From positions 1-38,596 of the IMG/VR virus record IMGVR_UViG_3300025896_000070: a DNA stretch of 38,596 bases; one strand, 5' to 3'. The translations under genes were made by a program, and so were the position numbers. Below are positions 21,436-30,535 of this stretch, in pieces. This DNA is from a virus. Numbering within the stretch: the first letter of the stretch is position 1; the number at the start of each line of letters is the position of its first letter. The notes under the pieces are model-generated. The model did no database searches, was not told the origin of the DNA, and worked only from the letters and a program-made list of their open reading frames with translations.

Positions 21436-21456
21436 AGCCCCGGATAGCTCGGGGCT
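21436..21456. terminator. Hairpin between convergent operons
   Basis: AGCCCCG (21436-21442) is the complement of CGGGGCT (21450-21456) with loop GATAGCT. It lies where the rightward late operon and leftward early operon meet, and overlaps the last codon and stop of the leftward gene. No T-run on either side, so it may be a weak bidirectional or Rho-assisted end. Confidence 0.45.
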
Positions 21457-21796
21457 AACAGATTGCGGCGGGGGCCCATCCAATCCGGGGAGGCCGGGGG
21501 AGGCCGTGTGCGGGCCATGCCTTGCTCGAGGCAGGGTGCTCGAGGACCCCACCCCAGCGGCGGACGGACGCCAGCGCCGAAGCGAAACACCCCCCATCGT
21601 TCCCGGGGCGATTGTGTTCACCACCCCAGCGTTTGAAATTGAGGGCTGCGAAGTTCACCCACAACTGGCATGGAGGGTGGGCCACCACGGGATGCGGGCC
21701 AGCGTAGAGCCTGGCATCCCGGTTGATGTCCCACGGGTCCACGCCTGGCAGGTTGAAGTAGCAACCATTCGTTTCGACAAAGAGGGCGGCGATCAA
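21455..21796 (-). CDS. Phage protein with HPPC motif, probably C-terminally shortened
   Basis: 113 residues from the TTG at 21796, chosen because GGAG lies 6 bases ahead of it (a TTG at 21808 would add four residues). IAALFVETNGCYFNLPGVDPWDINRDARLYAGPHPVVAHPPCQLW..FA and DGGCFASALASVRRWGGVLEHPASSKAWPAHGLPRPP match a phage family I know as longer (about 200 residues or more), with the HPPC resembling motif IV of DNA methyltransferases. Here it stops after RPPRIGWAPAAIC, inside the convergent hairpin. Either a shortened form or a remnant. Confidence 0.6.
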   Translation of the reverse strand: MIAALFVETNGCYFNLPGVDPWDINRDARLYAGPHPVVAHPPCQLWVNFAALNFKRWGGEHNRPGNDGGCFASALASVRRWGGVLEHPASSKAWPAHGLPRPPRIGWAPAAIC

Positions 21797-21829
21797 TTCA
21801 GGCTCCAAGGTTCACGGTTTTGGACAAGA

Positions 21830-22075
21830 TCAACGGGGTTTCGGAAGGTGCCGAAGGAACTCCCTGGCTTCGATTACCGCAAGGTCATCCTCTGTTGGGA
21901 TCGTGCCGTAAAGGGCATAGCGGAGAAGAACATCAATGTGCATGGACGCCTCGACCGTCTTGCGCTTCCAGTAGGAGGCGTTCTTCGGCGGGTTGGGATC
22001 AGATTCGGTCGGGTAGACCACCAACGGCTTCTCTGGGTGGGGTTGCTTGGGGTGCTGGTAGGTTTCGGGTTCCAT
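21830..22075 (-). CDS. Small early protein, unknown
   Basis: 81 residues (MEPETYQHPKQPHPEKPLVVYPTE ... AREFLRHLPKPR). It has a proline-rich, charged N-terminus, then one helical section (ASMHIDVLLRYALYGTIPTEDDLAVIEAREFL). The sequence CTGGAGGAACC before ATG is a strong ribosome site and lies just after a TGTCCA site. No family recognised. The short length and run of similar genes are typical of early phage accessory or host-takeover genes. Confidence 0.7.
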   Translation of the reverse strand: MEPETYQHPKQPHPEKPLVVYPTESDPNPPKNASYWKRKTVEASMHIDVLLRYALYGTIPTEDDLAVIEAREFLRHLPKPR

Positions 22076-22096
22076 GGTTCCTCCAGATGGACAGGA

Positions 22097-22324
22097 TCAC
22101 TTTTCGTTGAATCGGGTCAGAAGCCTGTCGATGGCTTCTAGCGTTGGGGCGGTAGAGAGTTCAGCAGTGTTCATTTCCTCGTCTGAAACTTCATCCACAA
22201 CATCGGCTTCGATGATTCCGGCGATCACCTTGCCCATCAGGACAACCGATGCGCGGACCATAGCCAGATCCTCACGGAAGGCTTCAGCAGCCTTGCGCTT
22301 TTCTCTGTAGTAGGTGGCTCCCAT
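22097..22324 (-). CDS. Small helical early protein, unknown
   Basis: 75 residues, mostly helix by pattern (REKRKAAEAFREDLAMVRASVVLMGKVIAGIIEADVVDEVSDEEMNTAE). A basic start is followed by an amphipathic stretch and an acidic tail. The start ATG lies only 3 bases after the stop of the HTH gene (TGA CAC ATG), the single junction in this block with no TGTCCA, apparently because there is no room. No known family. Confidence 0.65.
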   Translation of the reverse strand: MGATYYREKRKAAEAFREDLAMVRASVVLMGKVIAGIIEADVVDEVSDEEMNTAELSTAPTLEAIDRLLTRFNEK

Positions 22325-22327
22325 GTG

Positions 22328-22678
22328 TCACCCAACCTTGTGCATTTTTTTGTATCGGATGACTTTCCGGCACCCAACAAAATCGAGGATCTTCCCTGTT
22401 GGCTCGTCTCTACCTTGTAGGACGTTGTTTAATGCTTGTTGTGGGATGCCAATTTCCCTAGACAGCCGTGCTTGATCCCCGTGTTTCGCAATGCGCGATT
22501 TAAGCGCGTCCACCACTTGAGCCGACGAAAGGTATTCGATCCCATCTGTGCCGATCCTCCTGGCAAGGTCTGGTGGCATGAGAAGTTCGATCCCATTTGA
22601 GACGCTGATCGGGATGCTCCCTTCTGTTGGGAAGGTCAATTCTTTGATAGCGCAGATGTCGAAAAACCTTTTCTTCAT
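22328..22678 (-). CDS. HTH DNA-binding protein, candidate early regulator
   Basis: 116 residues. The C-terminal half has a helix-turn-helix: DALKSRIAKHGDQARLSREIGIPQQALNNVLQGRDEPTGKILDFVG (about 58-102), close to the XRE-like pattern of phage proteins that end in LGLRRV-YE. The first 50 residues (FFDICAIKELTFPTEGSIPISVSNG) form a separate beta-like part. It may bind the operator sites at 30578 and 30999 or the TGTCCA sites; nothing in the sequence proves either. Start ATG follows TGTCCAGGAG, where the ribosome site is part of the repeat. Confidence 0.7.
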   Translation of the reverse strand: MKKRFFDICAIKELTFPTEGSIPISVSNGIELLMPPDLARRIGTDGIEYLSSAQVVDALKSRIAKHGDQARLSREIGIPQQALNNVLQGRDEPTGKILDFVGCRKVIRYKKMHKVG

Positions 22679-22701
22679 CGGGTCAGTCTCCTGGACAAAA
22701 G

Positions 22702-22977
22702 CTAGATGGATTCGTTGCCAACGGTAGGCTCGGAGGGCATGACATAGACCTCCAATGGCTTCCCGCAGTAAGGACAGAAGTGGTAGTGGTTCTCTTTGGG
22801 ACCGTCCTCGATGAACTCATGGCGGTTGTCGCAGGCGGTATCCCAAACGCCATCCTCGTCCTGCCACCAGCAGCAGCGGGGGTGTTCACAGGTCATTTCG
22901 ATGGTGTCGCCGCCGAAGGTTTCAAGAATGTATTTCCCGGTGTCTCGGCATCGTTGGCACTTGTGCATGGTGGTCAT
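22702..22977 (-). CDS. Small zinc-ribbon protein
   Basis: 91 residues. Two cysteine sets are seen: CQRCRDTGK ... CEHPRCCW and HFCPYCGKPLEV. The WDTACDNRHEFIEDGP.ENHYHFCPYCGKPL segment looks like the restriction-alleviation (Lar)/DUF551-type zinc ribbons of phage early regions. It likely binds one or two zinc ions. Function unknown; anti-restriction or protein-binding roles are possible. It begins with two close ATGs (22977 and 22968). Confidence 0.7.
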   Translation of the reverse strand: MTTMHKCQRCRDTGKYILETFGGDTIEMTCEHPRCCWWQDEDGVWDTACDNRHEFIEDGPKENHYHFCPYCGKPLEVYVMPSEPTVGNESI

Positions 22978-22986
22978 TTCTGGACA

Positions 22987-23136
22987 TCAGCGTTTCAGGG
23001 CTTCGCGGGCAATGTCCTGCAAGTAAAGCCGCGTGTGGGTTTCAGTGGCGATTCGATTAAGCGCGTGGCGCAGGCGCATGTTTTCCTCGCCAAGCGCCTG
23101 GAGGCATGCGATCAACTGTTCGGTGTCTTCCGGCAT
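22987..23136 (-). CDS. 49-residue helical protein, unknown
   Basis: MPEDTEQLIACLQALGEENM ... LQDIAREALKR. Supported by the GAAAGGTGAACC ribosome site ahead of ATG at 23136, TGTCCA sites on both sides, and a reading frame that fills the gap between its neighbours exactly. A leucine/alanine heptad pattern (LIACLQALGEENMRLRHALNRIA) suggests a short coiled coil. Its stop TGA at 22987-22989 directly precedes the next TGTCCA. No family recognised. Confidence 0.65.
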   Translation of the reverse strand: MPEDTEQLIACLQALGEENMRLRHALNRIATETHTRLYLQDIAREALKR

Positions 23137-23158
23137 GGTTCACCTTTCTGGACAGGTG

Positions 23159-23350
23159 CTACTTGTAGAGGGGAAGGCGCTCGGTCAGGTATTCCTGGAG
23201 GTCGTCCATGATTTCCAGGTTTTCCTCGTCGGCGCTGAACCAGAGATAGGCAACCTCGCGCCCATCTTTCACCACGCTCATGCGGGTTCCGATGGGACAG
23301 GCTGGATCGCCATGCTCGACCTGTTCTTCGATCTTCAATTCACAGGGCAA
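23159..23350 (-). CDS. 63-residue acidic protein, unknown
   Basis: Starts at TTG 23350; the strong AGGAGG ribosome site 5 bases ahead decides this start. MPCELKIEEQVEHGDPACPIGTRMSVVKDGREVAYLWFSADEENLEIMDDLQEYLTERLPLYK: a small beta sheet followed by an acidic helix. It resembles other small phage early proteins of the mixed alpha-beta kind, but no family is recognised. Confidence 0.65.
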   Translation of the reverse strand: MPCELKIEEQVEHGDPACPIGTRMSVVKDGREVAYLWFSADEENLEIMDDLQEYLTERLPLYK

Positions 23351-23369
23351 GGTGCCCTCCTATGGACAG

Positions 23370-23777
23370 TTACGGATTGAGGGCGGTTCGGATAGCGTTG
23401 GCGAGGGCGAAGTCGCCCAGGGCCTCGCACGATCCTTGGGCCCGTTTCAGCAGGTCACGGAACTTGGCTTCTTCCTTCTTCCAAATCTCGATGACCTTTG
23501 CGTGTTGGGCGTCGATCTCTTTGGCTTCGGCTTCCAGTTCCGCGACACGGTGAGGCATAGGCGCGAGTTCTCGGCAGTAGTCCAGCAGTTCGTCCTGCAT
23601 CCGTTTCCCGTTGTCGCCCAGGGCAAACCGGACACGGGAGAGTAGATCGAAGGCGCTGATGTTGTCCTTCCGGGCTTGCTCCAAGTCATCCCGCAGGGAA
23701 TCCAGGGCGGGGCGCCACACGGTTTCCGGTGCGTCACAGGTCAGGAGGCATTGCTCAAGGATTGAAAGGTCAGTCAT
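23370..23777 (-). CDS. Coiled-coil early protein, unknown
   Basis: 135 residues. A helical N-terminal part (LEQCLLTCDAPETVWRPALDSLRDDLEQARKD) is followed by a long coil (about 70-125: PMPHRVAELEAEAKEIDAQHAKVIEIWKKEEAKFRDLLKRAQGSCEAL). No catalytic or zinc motif. ATG at 23777 follows a TGTCCA site, with GAGG as ribosome site. Could be a structural or adaptor protein; no family recognised. Confidence 0.65.
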   Translation of the reverse strand: MTDLSILEQCLLTCDAPETVWRPALDSLRDDLEQARKDNISAFDLLSRVRFALGDNGKRMQDELLDYCRELAPMPHRVAELEAEAKEIDAQHAKVIEIWKKEEAKFRDLLKRAQGSCEALGDFALANAIRTALNP

Positions 23778-23795
23778 GTGGGGTGCCTCTGGACA

Positions 23796-24050
23796 TCAGC
23801 ATTGAAGGTGGTTTTCGTAGTGCTGGATGGCGCGGATCGCCGCATCCACCCACGATGTTCCGGGTTGCCACAGATCCTCGTTGGCACCGTTCCCGAGTGC
23901 AGCTTGGACCTTCGCTCGGTCCTGTTCGTGCCCCTGGACCTCGCCCAGCTTGGCGATATAGAGCGCCTGGAGGCTGAGATAGTCCTGTGAGTAGTAAACC
24001 GGCGAGGCGAGTTGGCACCCGCAGCCTCTGCATTTTGTTAGTTCAGACAC
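23796..24050 (-). CDS. Small protein with N-terminal CxxCxC motif
   Basis: 84 residues from GTG 24050, set by GGAGGGCACC just upstream (the same 10 bases as before the TTG gene at 23350). MSELTKCRGCGCQLASPVYYSQDYLSLQALYIAKLGEV has a cysteine pattern at residues 7-12 that may bind metal. The rest is helical, with a second part (LWQPGTSWVDAAIRAIQHYENHL). Its stop abuts a TGTCCA site. Function unknown. Confidence 0.65.
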   Translation of the reverse strand: MSELTKCRGCGCQLASPVYYSQDYLSLQALYIAKLGEVQGHEQDRAKVQAALGNGANEDLWQPGTSWVDAAIRAIQHYENHLQC

Positions 24051-24093
24051 GGTGCCCTCCAGGGCAAGGCGGGAGGTTCCCGCGAGTGGACAT

Positions 24094-24288
24094 TCACGGT
24101 TTGAGGGCGTCTTTCATGTTGTGCAGGGCTTCGGGGAAGTTCGCGCCGAAGTAGATCGCGCCGTTGGGATGCTTGATCGCACAGACTTCCGACCCGTCAT
24201 CGAAGGTTTCGACCTGATGCCAAACCCTCACGGGCAGGGAAACAATCGTGTCCTTGGGCTCGGTTCGGGACTTCAGGTTTCGGGGCAT
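24094..24288 (-). CDS. 64-residue early protein, unknown
   Basis: MPRNLKSRTEPKDTIVSLPVRVWHQVETFDDGSEVCAIKHPNGAIYFGANFPEALHNMKDALKP. Basic N-terminus, then a beta-rich domain and a C-terminal helix. AAAGGAGGCGCG before ATG is a very strong ribosome site. TGTCCA sites flank it. No family recognised; the short beta-barrel-like pattern could serve a host-binding protein. Confidence 0.65.
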   Translation of the reverse strand: MPRNLKSRTEPKDTIVSLPVRVWHQVETFDDGSEVCAIKHPNGAIYFGANFPEALHNMKDALKP

Positions 24289-24324
24289 CGCGCCTCCTTT
24301 CGAGGGTCGTGCAGATGGACATAT

Positions 24325-24492
24325 TCAAACTTGGTTGATGGGGATGCGGCAGGCGCAGGGGTCAAGGAACGGGACGATGCCCAACACGGCGCAAGCCTTG
24401 GCATAGACATTCCAGTCATCCGTGGTGTAGCAACCGCCCAAGGTGTAGCGGTCCACGATTCGCTGGGCATCGGCTTTCTTCCGGTCGCTCAC
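24325..24492 (-). CDS. 55-residue early protein, unknown
   Basis: The start is taken at GTG 24492 (VSDRKKADAQRIVDRYTLGG...), because GGAG of TGTCCAGGAG lies 7 bases ahead of it; a TTG at 24510 would overlap that repeat. The product has one helix (KKADAQRIVDRY), then GGCYTTDDWNVYAKACAVLGIVPFLDPCAC. Several cysteines, no clear metal site. Function unknown. Confidence 0.65.
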   Translation of the reverse strand: MSDRKKADAQRIVDRYTLGGCYTTDDWNVYAKACAVLGIVPFLDPCACRIPINQV

Positions 24493-24521
24493 GGTCAGGC
24501 TCCTGGACAAGATCAGTTCCG

Positions 24522-24608: not shown

Positions 24609-25024
24609 GCCGCCACCCCGTGCTGCCGCTTCTTGGCCCGGTATGCCTGGTTCCGGCTCCGATACACGGCGCGGCAGGGTTCGCAGGGGACCGGGCCTCC
24701 ACACCGGGCGCAGCGCCCGGCCTCGCGGTTCTTCTCGCGCTTCGTGCGCTGCCGCTCGGTGTGGGCCTCGGCGCAGACGGCGCACCACTTCAGGCCCCTC
24801 ATGCGCTCCCGCTGTAGGCACTGGACGCACCACCCCAGGACGATGGCCAGCACGCGCATCTTGCGCTGGCGTCGGCGGCTGGCCTCGTTCGTGGTCTTCC
24901 GGCAGGGGACGCACATCGGGCGCCCAGGCTCGGGCGGGACGCTGCCGCACTGGGTGCAGACCCCGGCAGCCTTGCGGGCCCGGTAGCGGCGGCGGGAGGC
25001 CGTGGCGGGGGCGTTGGTCATCAT
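24605..25024 (-). CDS. Cysteine-rich basic protein with several zinc-binding pairs
   Basis: 139 residues, strongly basic, with repeated CxxC units: GVCTQCGSVPPEPGRPMCVPCRK (about 21-43), GWCVQCLQRERMRGLKWCAVCAE (about 64-86) and RCARCGGPVPCEPCR (about 103-117). That gives two or three treble-clef-like zinc sites separated by arginine-rich helices, as in phage HNH-adjacent or nucleic-acid-binding zinc proteins. No HNH triad is visible. Probably binds DNA or RNA. ATGA overlap at both ends. Confidence 0.7.
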   Translation of the reverse strand: MMTNAPATASRRRYRARKAAGVCTQCGSVPPEPGRPMCVPCRKTTNEASRRRQRKMRVLAIVLGWCVQCLQRERMRGLKWCAVCAEAHTERQRTKREKNREAGRCARCGGPVPCEPCRAVYRSRNQAYRAKKRQHGVAA

Positions 25025-25215
25025 GTCAGCGGCTCCTCATCCATCGGATTCGGGACGCGCTTCTCCACCAGACCCTTGCCGCAGAACGGGCAGTAGTTCA
25101 TCCGGTTATCAGTGGGGCCGCCTTCCTCGAAAACCCAGGCTTCCCCGCAATCGGATTCCCAGGTGGAGTAGTCCCAGTTCTCCTGGTATTTCCAGGTGCA
25201 AAGCTCAACGCTCAT
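25021..25215 (-). CDS. Small zinc-ribbon-like protein
   Basis: 64 residues (MSVELCTWKYQENWDYSTWE ... MDEEPLT) from ATG 25215, which overlaps the stop of the gene before. WESDCGEAWVFEEGGPTDNRMNYCPFCGKGLVEK is the known phage zinc-ribbon ending (C near the middle, then CPFCGK), similar in plan to the gene at 22702. It may act in anti-restriction or be a host-binding protein. A longer upstream frame is ignored because it merely runs antisense to real coupling signals. Confidence 0.7.
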   Translation of the reverse strand: MSVELCTWKYQENWDYSTWESDCGEAWVFEEGGPTDNRMNYCPFCGKGLVEKRVPNPMDEEPLT

Positions 25216-25430
25216 GTCAGCGGCTCCTGTTCGTCCAACTCGGAACACATGCGCGGGTGGATCACGGCCGCCCTGCCCTTCCAGCAGGCGACCGCGGCCT
25301 GCCGTTCGGCCTCGCGGTGGGCCTGGTGGCGCTCCAGGTCGGTCGGCTGGGGCTCGGGCCGCTCGGGGAACAGCACCGGGTAGAGCAGCCACCCGACGAT
25401 CAGGCAGGCGATGGGGACCAGGATGATCAT
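25212..25430 (-). CDS. Small single-pass membrane protein
   Basis: 72 residues from ATG 25430, preceded by GGAGGACC and overlapping the previous stop by ATGA. Residues 2-21 (IILVPIACLIVGWLLYPVLF) form one membrane helix; the rest is a charged, helical tail (DLERHQAHREAERQAAVACWKGRAAVI). Its last 17 bases are identical to the end of the next gene, including AGGAG and the ATGA overlap. Function unknown; an early inner-membrane protein. Confidence 0.65.
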   Translation of the reverse strand: MIILVPIACLIVGWLLYPVLFPERPEPQPTDLERHQAHREAERQAAVACWKGRAAVIHPRMCSELDEQEPLT

Positions 25431-25669
25431 GCGGTCCTCCGGCCACGCAGGTCGCGCCATAGGTAGTCGGCCTTGGTGGAGCAGCTCGGGCGGTTCAGGT
25501 TCACGGTGCCCACGTCGATCCCGGCCACGCGCTCCTCGATCTCGAGGCTGTGTTTTTCGGTCACCCACGCCTGGAACGCACGCTGCCACGCGATGGCGGC
25601 GGCACTGTGCGGCACGAACGGGCGCGGCATCTCGGGGCGCTGGGTGAGGTGGTGCTGGAGGGGGGTCAT
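25427..25669 (-). CDS. Small early protein, unknown
   Basis: 80 residues (MTPLQHHLTQRPEMPRPFVPHSAAAIAWQRAFQAWVTEKHSLEIEERVAGIDVGTVNLNRPSCSTKADYLWRDLRGRRTA). It has a helix around IAWQRAFQAWVTEKHSLEIEERVAG, a basic tail, no recognised motif. ATGA overlaps at both ends tie it to its neighbours. Third-position GC fits the rest of the genome. Confidence 0.65.
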   Translation of the reverse strand: MTPLQHHLTQRPEMPRPFVPHSAAAIAWQRAFQAWVTEKHSLEIEERVAGIDVGTVNLNRPSCSTKADYLWRDLRGRRTA

Positions 25670-29421: not shown

Positions 29422-29744
29422 TGGGCGATCCTCAGACCAGCCAGCAGCGGCGCGAACACCGGGTGGACGTGGGCGTGGTCAACGCGGGCGGCCTCGGTCT
29501 GGCCTTCGACCACCTCAGCCACGGCCGGGTGCTTCTCACGGAACTCAGCGGCCCGCTGGGCGTGGGACTGGTTCAGCCGGCGGCTGCCCATCCAGGCCCG
29601 CAGCGTGACCTCGATGGGGCGCACCAGGCGCAGGGCTTCCTCAATCTCGGCGGTGGTGGGCTGCCCGAAGCACAGTTTCTGGAGTTTCGCCGTCAGGTCC
29701 AGGATCACTTCCGGGGCGTGTTCTTCGGTGTGGCGGGGTTTCAT
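29418..29744 (-). CDS. Helical early protein, unknown
   Basis: 108 residues from ATG 29744 (overlaps the previous stop by ATGA; a longer upstream extension is rejected). KPRHTEEHAPEVILDLTAKLQKLCFGQPTTAEIEEALRLVRPIEVTLRAWMGSRRLNQSHAQRAAEFREKHPAVAEVVEGQTEAARVDHAHVHPVFAPLLAGLRIAQ. Mostly helical, no known motif. Part of the leftward early operon between the repeat protein and HNH gene. Confidence 0.65.
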   Translation of the reverse strand: MKPRHTEEHAPEVILDLTAKLQKLCFGQPTTAEIEEALRLVRPIEVTLRAWMGSRRLNQSHAQRAAEFREKHPAVAEVVEGQTEAARVDHAHVHPVFAPLLAGLRIAQ

Positions 29745-30535
29745 GACGCCACCTCGTTTTCGGCATTCTCTTTGGCTGGGAACTTCTGCTTGAGCCATTG
29801 GGCCGCGAGGGCGATGAGCAAACCGTATTCAGTGATCTGGTCTGCGCTGTAGCCTTCTCGATTACCGATGATTTGGTAGTTCGTCTGCCAGTGCCCCACC
29901 GTGTGGGTGTGGCACCCAATCTGGATTTTGGTGTGGGTGCAAGTGGTCAGGAAATGGCAGCTACCCTGAATTTGCAAAGGCGATGAGACCCAGGCGTCGC
30001 CGTAGACCCGGGCGTTGCCGTAGACCTGGGCGTCGCCGTAGACCCAGGCGTTGCCGTAGACCAGGGCGTTGCCGTAGACCCGGGCGTTGCCGTAGACCTG
30101 GGCGTCGCCGTAGACCCGGGCGTTGCCGTAGACCCGGGCGTTGCCGTAGACCTGGGCGTCGCCGTAGACCAGGGCGTCGCCGTAGACCCAGGCGTTGCCG
30201 GAGACCCAGGCGTCGCCGGAGACCCAGGCGTCGCCGTAGACCTGGGCGTCGCCGTAGACCAGGGCGTTGCCGTAGACCAGGGCGTTGCCGTAGACCCGGG
30301 CGTTGCCGTAGACCTGGGCGTCGCCGTAGACCCGGGCGTTGCCGTAGACCCGGGCGTTGCCGGAGACCCGGGCGTTGCCGGAGACCTGGGCGTTGCCGTA
30401 GACGATGCCTTCGATCAGGCAGGTGGCTTCGGCCTTTGCCGTGGTCTGGACCCAACCGCCGCCGTTCTCATGCTGCGTCCAGTCTTTTGCGGTGGTCCAG
30501 GTGAAGATGGCGAGGACTTCTTCGAGCGGTTTCAT
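29741..30535 (-). CDS. Hexapeptide-repeat beta-helix protein
   Basis: 264 residues. Residues 46-183 are 23 tandem six-residue units of the type Y/S-G-N/D-A-R/Q/L/W-V, as in left-handed or pentapeptide-like beta-helices. The C-terminal domain (SPLQIQGSCHFLTTCTHTKIQIGCHTHTVGHWQTNYQIIG) is a known tail of such phage proteins, with conserved Cys/His. First gene of the leftward early operon, 42 bases after the operator module. Function unknown; DNA-mimic or host-binding roles known for other repeat proteins are only an analogy. Confidence 0.8.
   Translation of the reverse strand: MKPLEEVLAIFTWTTAKDWTQHENGGGWVQTTAKAEATCLIEGIVYGNAQVSGNARVSGNARVYGNARVYGDAQVYGNARVYGNALVYGNALVYGDAQVYGDAWVSGDAWVSGNAWVYGDALVYGDAQVYGNARVYGNARVYGDAQVYGNARVYGNALVYGNAWVYGDAQVYGNARVYGDAWVSSPLQIQGSCHFLTTCTHTKIQIGCHTHTVGHWQTNYQIIGNREGYSADQITEYGLLIALAAQWLKQKFPAKENAENEVAS
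29987..30400 (-). repeat. Tandem array of 23 units of 18 bases
   Basis: Codes for the hexapeptide units of the protein above. On the coding strand each unit reads TAC/TCC GGC AAC/GAC GCC NNG GTC, where NNG is CGG, CAG, CTG or TGG. Only three codons vary, and each by one or two fixed choices. The near identity of the units argues for recent unequal exchange or gene conversion. Confidence 0.9.

Follow-up and report, generated by a model that had tools for sequence, protein, structure and literature searches.

The stretch of DNA considered here, a 38.6-kb IMG/VR virus record taken at its full length, is called the window. Its minus strand carries, from 24525 to 21796, a run of eleven consecutive small genes, and on this coding strand the run contains ten copies of the hexamer TGTCCA, all of them in the gaps that separate a stop from the following start. 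In the list below the features follow the direction of transcription; gene starts are predicted, lengths are in amino acids (aa) and nucleotides (nt), and names such as G010 or L045 denote phage contigs or loci used in the comparison.

24504..24509, minus strand: TGTCCA copy 1, the first of the array, in the context TAACGGAACTGATCT / TGTCCA / GGAGCCTGACC GTG
24325..24492, minus strand: gene 1, 55 aa
24316..24321, minus strand: TGTCCA copy 2, in the context TGA ATA TGTCCA TCTGCACGACCCTCGAAAGGAGG
24094..24288, minus strand: gene 2, 64 aa
24087..24092, minus strand: TGTCCA copy 3, with the hairpin leader CTCGCGGGAACCTCCCGC
23796..24050, minus strand: gene 3, 84 aa, of which the 3' part also occurs in L045 and L143, where the next genes differ
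23790..23795, minus strand: TGTCCA copy 4, TGATGTCCA; the seam at which the window, L045 and L143 diverge
23370..23777, minus strand: gene 4, 135 aa; the cassette is also in G010, at 82% over 234 nt from the motif exactly
23363..23368, minus strand: TGTCCA copy 5
23159..23350, minus strand: gene 5, 63 aa
23149..23154, minus strand: TGTCCA copy 6
22987..23136, minus strand: gene 6, 49 aa
22981..22986, minus strand: TGTCCA copy 7
22702..22977, minus strand: gene 7, 91 aa, zinc-ribbon-like, phrog_10312
22692..22697, minus strand: TGTCCA copy 8
22328..22678, minus strand: gene 8, 116 aa, with a weak HTH_3 match
22325..22327, minus strand: motif-free junction of 3 nt, read as lying inside a two-gene cassette (22328-22678 + 22097-22324)
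22097..22324, minus strand: gene 9, 75 aa, 3 nt behind gene 8
22088..22093, minus strand: TGTCCA copy 9
21830..22075, minus strand: gene 10, 81 aa
21821..21826, minus strand: TGTCCA copy 10, preceding the last gene; similarity to G009 begins 4 nt ahead of the motif
21455..21796, minus strand: gene 11, 113 aa from TTG; matches the N-terminal half of phrog_12600 only

The start of the last gene is probably the TTG at 21796 and not 21808, on the basis of homology and a GGAG site. The eleven intergenic gaps make up 256 nt of the 2730-nt block; ten of them hold TGTCCA, and the rest of the block is free of it on both strands. For ten randomly placed copies, the probability of all of them landing in gaps would be 4.6e-11 (P values and E-values in this work are valid for these data sets only). 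Dinucleotide shuffling of the block gave an expectation of 0.63 copies, with a maximum of 4 in 2000 shuffles. These results bear out the original prediction for this DNA, which had placed the hexamer at ten of eleven junctions and in none of the gene bodies, with one copy or fewer expected by chance, and had noted that the sole junction without it is just 3 bases long (22325-22327, with the letters TGACACATG).

The stop lies 0-4 nt ahead of TGTCCA for nine copies and 12 nt ahead for copy 1, where an out-of-frame TGA is found 3 nt before the motif. Unlike the stop distance, the distance to the start varies. A scan of both strands of the whole window, as had been proposed, gave 49 copies where 21 would be expected. 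The array accounts for ten of these; of the other 39, 31 are on the minus strand, mostly antisense to rightward structural genes, and we attribute this wider excess to codon usage, as something separate from the array element.

Arrays in other phage contigs

Searches with and without the motif together revealed that about 20 other contigs of uncultivated phages have arrays of TGTCCA next to stops; the arrays counted are those of the window and 14 further contigs, plus several among L219-L227. Those array proteins that were used as queries had few relatives, except for the last, which had many. No relatives of the helix-turn-helix (HTH) protein encoded by gene 8 were found in viral_contigs or the phage collection, and none of the zinc-ribbon gene in viral_contigs. 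Among the 80 best loci for the last gene, which were reached through its protein homologues without use of the motif, L077, L090 and L095 have stop-adjacent TGTCCA arrays. At 79 of the 80 there is no TGTCCA within 70 nt upstream of that gene; thus the hexamer is a property of the array and not of the gene. The existence of related phages with the same genes but no motif had been named as grounds for abandoning the prediction. Such loci do exist for this one gene, but they were chosen by that gene alone. Scans with junction words added L130, L131, L133, L134, L136-L139, L142, L144, L045, L047 and L219-L224.

In the window and 18 contigs that were read fully or nearly so (17 and one relative without an array), TGTCCA is the most frequent of the 4096 possible hexamers within 7 positions after a stop, with 132 occurrences, a 4.4-fold enrichment. 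When a stop was required at 0-8 nt on the upstream side and a start at 4-60 nt on the downstream side, TGTCCA gave 125 copies, compared with a mean of 12.0 (standard deviation 8.0, maximum 39) for the 179 other hexamers of the same composition. The strongest hexamers behind stops in other phages, besides pieces of TGTCCA, look mostly like pieces of Shine-Dalgarno (SD) sequences (GGAGCG, GGAGCC) or low-complexity runs.

The array contigs include siphovirus-like phages (the window and G017) and P22-portal-like podoviruses (G009, G010, G015 and G018), and no gene family present in all of them was found among the contigs analysed first. The relatives of the window by terminase are mostly without arrays; therefore, the array does not track the terminase lineage. 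Whole-array searches of phage and plasmid DNA found no cultured phage with an array.

Form of the element and the cassette seam

The consensus of 102 array copies, in which the hexamer itself is invariant by construction, is GNNNNTGTCCANNNGC. Among the neighbouring positions, G at -5 is present in 79 of 102 copies (77%) and G at +4 and C at +5 in 69 and 68, with further conservation of A at +9 and CC at +11 and +12. The invariant part is thus TGTCCA, which extends in its post-stop form to G-N4-TGTCCA. The upstream stop is found in several registers, either immediately ahead of positions -8 to -1 or among them. At a spacing of 3 it is TGA in 35 of 37 cases, whilst at a spacing of 4 it is TAG in 11 of 14 and never TGA; the overall numbers of stops are 557 TGA, 261 TAG and 241 TAA. 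Stop identity therefore follows the register, such that the G at -5 is retained. Post-stop copies lie 0-8 nt from the stop and ~5-57 nt from the start. The description of the element as start-associated therefore calls for refinement, since post-stop copies abut or overlap the upstream stop.

Leaders between the motif and the start are of recurring types (CTCGC-hairpin, GGAG, GGCGC, TCCTC, TCTGC and GATGCGGGAGGC), which are common to unrelated genes; the beginning of the leader after copy 2, for example, recurs before an unrelated gene in contig G010. Compact hairpins are found in a minority of leaders, and a search of the window against Rfam gave no match. Of 128 position pairs examined for coupling between the preceding word and the leader that follows the motif, one was notable (z 4.4) and none of the rest. 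Genes overlap at 0 of 60 motif junctions, where the median gap is 36, compared with 77 of 190 other junctions of the same contigs. Eighteen array junctions lack the motif, at least four of which have, by inspection, a likely one-base variant (TGCCCA, TGTCGA, TGACCA or TTTCCA). Some TGTCCA copies, in many cases the one that opens an array, are immediately preceded by a terminator-like T-run hairpin or the palindrome GGTTCCG..CGGAACC (L143:3900-3977, L095:8640-8714, L221:480-553 and L224:1000-1095).

When the arrays are compared at the nucleotide level, homologous array genes are similar up to TGTCCA and divergent beyond it. Relative to the motif, the similarity between G000 and G010 starts at 0, and that between G016 and G020 starts at 0/0 and ends at -4/-7; those of G014 with G018 and of G009 with G017 end at +6. 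Within G009 one cassette has been duplicated with the motif at both ends, the borders lying at -1 to +13. The clearest seam is found after gene 23796-24050 of the window, the 3' part of which is nearly identical in L045 and L143 as far as GATGTCCA, where three different leaders and genes follow. The L143 form of this shared gene has CGA in place of its TGA stop directly before TGTCCA (L143:3560-3580), and as a result the reading frame continues into the seam.

The 84 open reading frames (ORFs) in cassettes belong to 75 families, eight of which recur. The neighbours of these eight agree in none of 13 comparisons, and clearly different leaders are found in five of the eight. G017 has 19 families in common with the window, yet none of its cassettes resembles one of the window's. 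The suggestion that TGTCCA is a linker for the exchange of small gene cassettes, to be examined by aligning the junctions of relatives, is therefore strongly supported by these breaks in similarity and changes of neighbour. The place of TGTCCA as the seam where homologous cassettes have their borders and pass from one neighbour to another can be regarded as well supported.

Some other features of these genomes may be mentioned. The last array gene encodes 113 aa, compared with 202 aa for its G009 homologue, and a terminator-like hairpin, CCCCGAGCTATCCGGGG, follows it. Upstream of the array (25021-25669, minus strand), genes are joined by 4-nt overlaps, with GAGCCGCTGACATG before two of the starts, a style of coupling that is absent from the array. 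A 264-aa gene at 29741-30535 (minus strand) consists of near-perfect VYGNA/VYGDA repeats and has relatives in several PHROGs without known function. The two ends of the G010 contig (L176 and L177) are identical over 127 bp, so that this is probably a complete circular genome with an array spanning the contig ends. In G009, G019, G020 and G022, the array regions have tandem repeats within ORFs, such as RPHLGNAGMGVN in a DNA methylase-like gene of G019.

Possible functions of the hexamer

The 84 array ORFs contain no sense copy of TGTCCA, where shuffling of synonymous codons gives an expectation of 4.9 (P 0.005), whilst antisense copies (TGGACA) number 6 against 6.0 expected. Across the array spans as a whole the element reads with transcription, and antisense copies are at the level of chance. 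Such avoidance, seen on the sense strand only, is consistent with a signal recognised in the transcript or, failing that, along the direction of transcription.

G018, G019 and G028 share the sequence GCGCACCAACGRTRATGAATTATTT ahead of their first TGTCCA copy. When the core of this header was used in a scan without the hexamer, seven loci were found and in all seven TGTCCA followed the AT-rich part at a distance of about a dozen bases. Three of the seven are those from which the header was defined, and L225 seems to be a copy of L227 or the reverse; thus, there are at most three independent new cases. In these seven loci the header occurs once per array, before the first copy, and the other junctions have no AT-rich block. 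By its distance the AT-rich block resembles a -10 region, in which case the first TGTCCA would lie near the start of the transcript. The idea that the hexamer acts in the leader or at the RNA level, one of several that had been raised, is thus supported indirectly, by the sense-only avoidance and by its place just behind a promoter-like header.

We give even chances to the proposal that TGTCCA is the 5' boundary of an exchangeable small-gene cassette and probably also a leader element, read at the RNA level on the sense strand by a host factor. A cassette would consist of TGTCCA, a leader of ~10-50 nt with a ribosome site, an ORF (sometimes two adjoining), a stop and 0-8 nt. The hexamer would act on the sense strand, most likely in the mRNA leader, either as a processing site or as a signal for translation initiation or insulation, a mechanism that the sequences suggest; the lack of gene overlap at motif junctions points to insulation. 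Its reader may be a factor of the host group common to these phages; a shared host factor is likelier than a shared phage protein, because the contigs are both siphovirus- and podovirus-like and have no universal gene family. Each small gene would then be expressed independently of its upstream neighbour, and a cassette arriving by phage recombination would be functional at once. Recurring at every seam, TGTCCA would at the same time provide all the junctions with one and the same joint.

Several observations weigh against this proposal. The avoidance was measured in 84 ORFs and is absent from long genes outside the arrays (131 copies against 118 expected). Overall, leaders are not more structured than their shuffled counterparts (mean z -0.25), and therefore no common fold stands behind an RNA-level role. 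The window array has no header of the kind described above, and the header itself is only promoter-like. Most relatives came from searches with TGTCCA-containing patterns, so that one junction of each contig was given beforehand. As for the host, a pattern scan of genome_contigs gave 29 matches against ~30 expected by chance, none with an array, and two drawn samples of genomes (379 and 399) gave a single isolated match and no array. Finally, so short a seam fits a pure microhomology joint equally well.

The hexamer might accordingly be a recombination joint and nothing else, whether the core of a recombinase site or a microhomology used in exchange, with no role in expression. Such a joint would account for the breaks in homology at the motif on both ends of cassettes and beside the header, and for the duplicated G009 cassette that is bounded by the motif on both sides. 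It does not, however, predict the avoidance within array genes on the sense strand alone, the strict orientation with transcription, or the position of the motif 10-11 nt behind the header, and it has to operate among contigs that have no universal gene family. Six bases are, moreover, few for either homologous or site-specific recombination, and we consider this explanation unlikely. A ribosome-recruitment sequence, in which TGTCCA would be no more than part of the unusual SD context of a host group, draws on the frequent merging of the hexamer with a purine site (TGTCCAGGAG) and on the common occurrence of AACC/GAACC before ATG. The start distance nevertheless ranges far more widely than the stop distance, separate SDs are usually present and TGTCCA is not used by genes outside the arrays in these contigs, all of which makes this reading distinctly improbable. 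Direct pairing with the 3' tail of 16S rRNA is rejected, since UGGACA, the complement of UGUCCA, is to our knowledge not in the anti-SD tail.

Scarcely better placed than the SD reading is a DNA operator or stoperator, at each copy of which a protein would stop or modulate transcription, as in the Cluster A mycobacteriophages. Asymmetry, orientation with transcription, location in short gaps beside stops and a frequency of about ten per phage are all stoperator-like (PMC9283540), but only six positions are invariant, the G at -5 being present in 77% of copies, compared with 13 bp in L5, and avoidance confined to the sense strand is not what an operator would lead one to expect. Nor do the contigs have a repressor family in common. 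The HTH protein at 22328, which had been put forward as a binder of the hexamer, is not supported in this role, having no relatives in the collections searched, whilst the arrays occur in phages without a common gene family. A further candidate is a specific single-strand nick site of the kind present in the virion DNA of T5, phiKMV and tf. It would also have a short consensus on one strand in about ten repeats, and tf has 14 sites on one strand (PMC3517423). The sites in those phages are not described as being tied to stops or cassettes, whereas the element here is confined to one small-gene array and extends across unrelated phages, and a nick site seems very improbable indeed.

Relation to known elements and wider meaning

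The nearest known kinds of element are the start-associated sequences of Cluster K mycobacteriophages and the PeSLs of T4-like phages. Cluster K start-associated sequences (SAS) and their extended form (ESAS) are short asymmetric repeats, present in 11-19 copies per genome in one orientation at the junctions of non-structural genes; the 13-bp SAS consensus, GGGATAGGAGCCC, in which an AGGAG ribosome site is included, is placed 3-7 bp from the start (PMC3203893). TGTCCA is likewise short, in one orientation and at non-structural junctions before genes of different families, and in both cases the upstream stop may fall within the element. It differs in being a hexamer (G-N4-TGTCCA) that does not match the 13-bp consensus, has no SD and is anchored to the stop, without the fixed start spacing and SD overlap of the SAS. 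In addition, SAS belong to one phage cluster, whereas TGTCCA is found in unrelated lineages and with a visible cassette seam.

PeSLs are described as composite promoter-terminator elements (Arbiol 2010 and Comeau 2014, as cited in PMC4503421). So far as that account goes, they resemble TGTCCA as short elements between small genes at which gene shuffling takes place. They differ, on the same account, in having an early promoter and a stem-loop terminator per element, where the junctions here have the hexamer and varied leaders only and terminator-like hairpins precede few copies, and in occurring in one phage group. The stoperators of L5 and Cluster A are 13-bp asymmetric DNA sites for a repressor, spread genome-wide (PMC9283540). 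They share asymmetry, orientation with transcription and short intergenic spaces with the present element, which is instead a hexamer in one array that does not match the 13-bp consensus and has no common repressor family. The likeness to SAS and stoperators that was noted in the original prediction thus holds for orientation and place, but not for consensus, length, SAS spacing or a shared repressor. Integron cassettes are likewise small ORFs that stand in arrays of variable order and share a joint, namely attC with its R and L boxes. Here the joint is six bases long and in phage genomes; no attC-like R/L structure was seen by inspection, and no dedicated search for an integrase was made.

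At somewhat less than even confidence, the arrays may be viewed more broadly as a common currency among unrelated phages of one host group, a cassette format in which a UGUCCA leader read by the host makes small genes into plug-in units. If this is true, cassettes would move freely between siphovirus-like and podovirus-like phages and be expressed wherever they land. Phage genomes are rich in small genes that are exchanged rapidly, and it has long been asked how these can be swapped without loss of expression. In the present arrays the joint can be located to the exact base in phages without a common gene family, and strand-specific selection hints at a host RNA signal. The seam offers a means of finding accessory genes, and would allow a test of whether gene exchange between phages depends on a shared format of expression.

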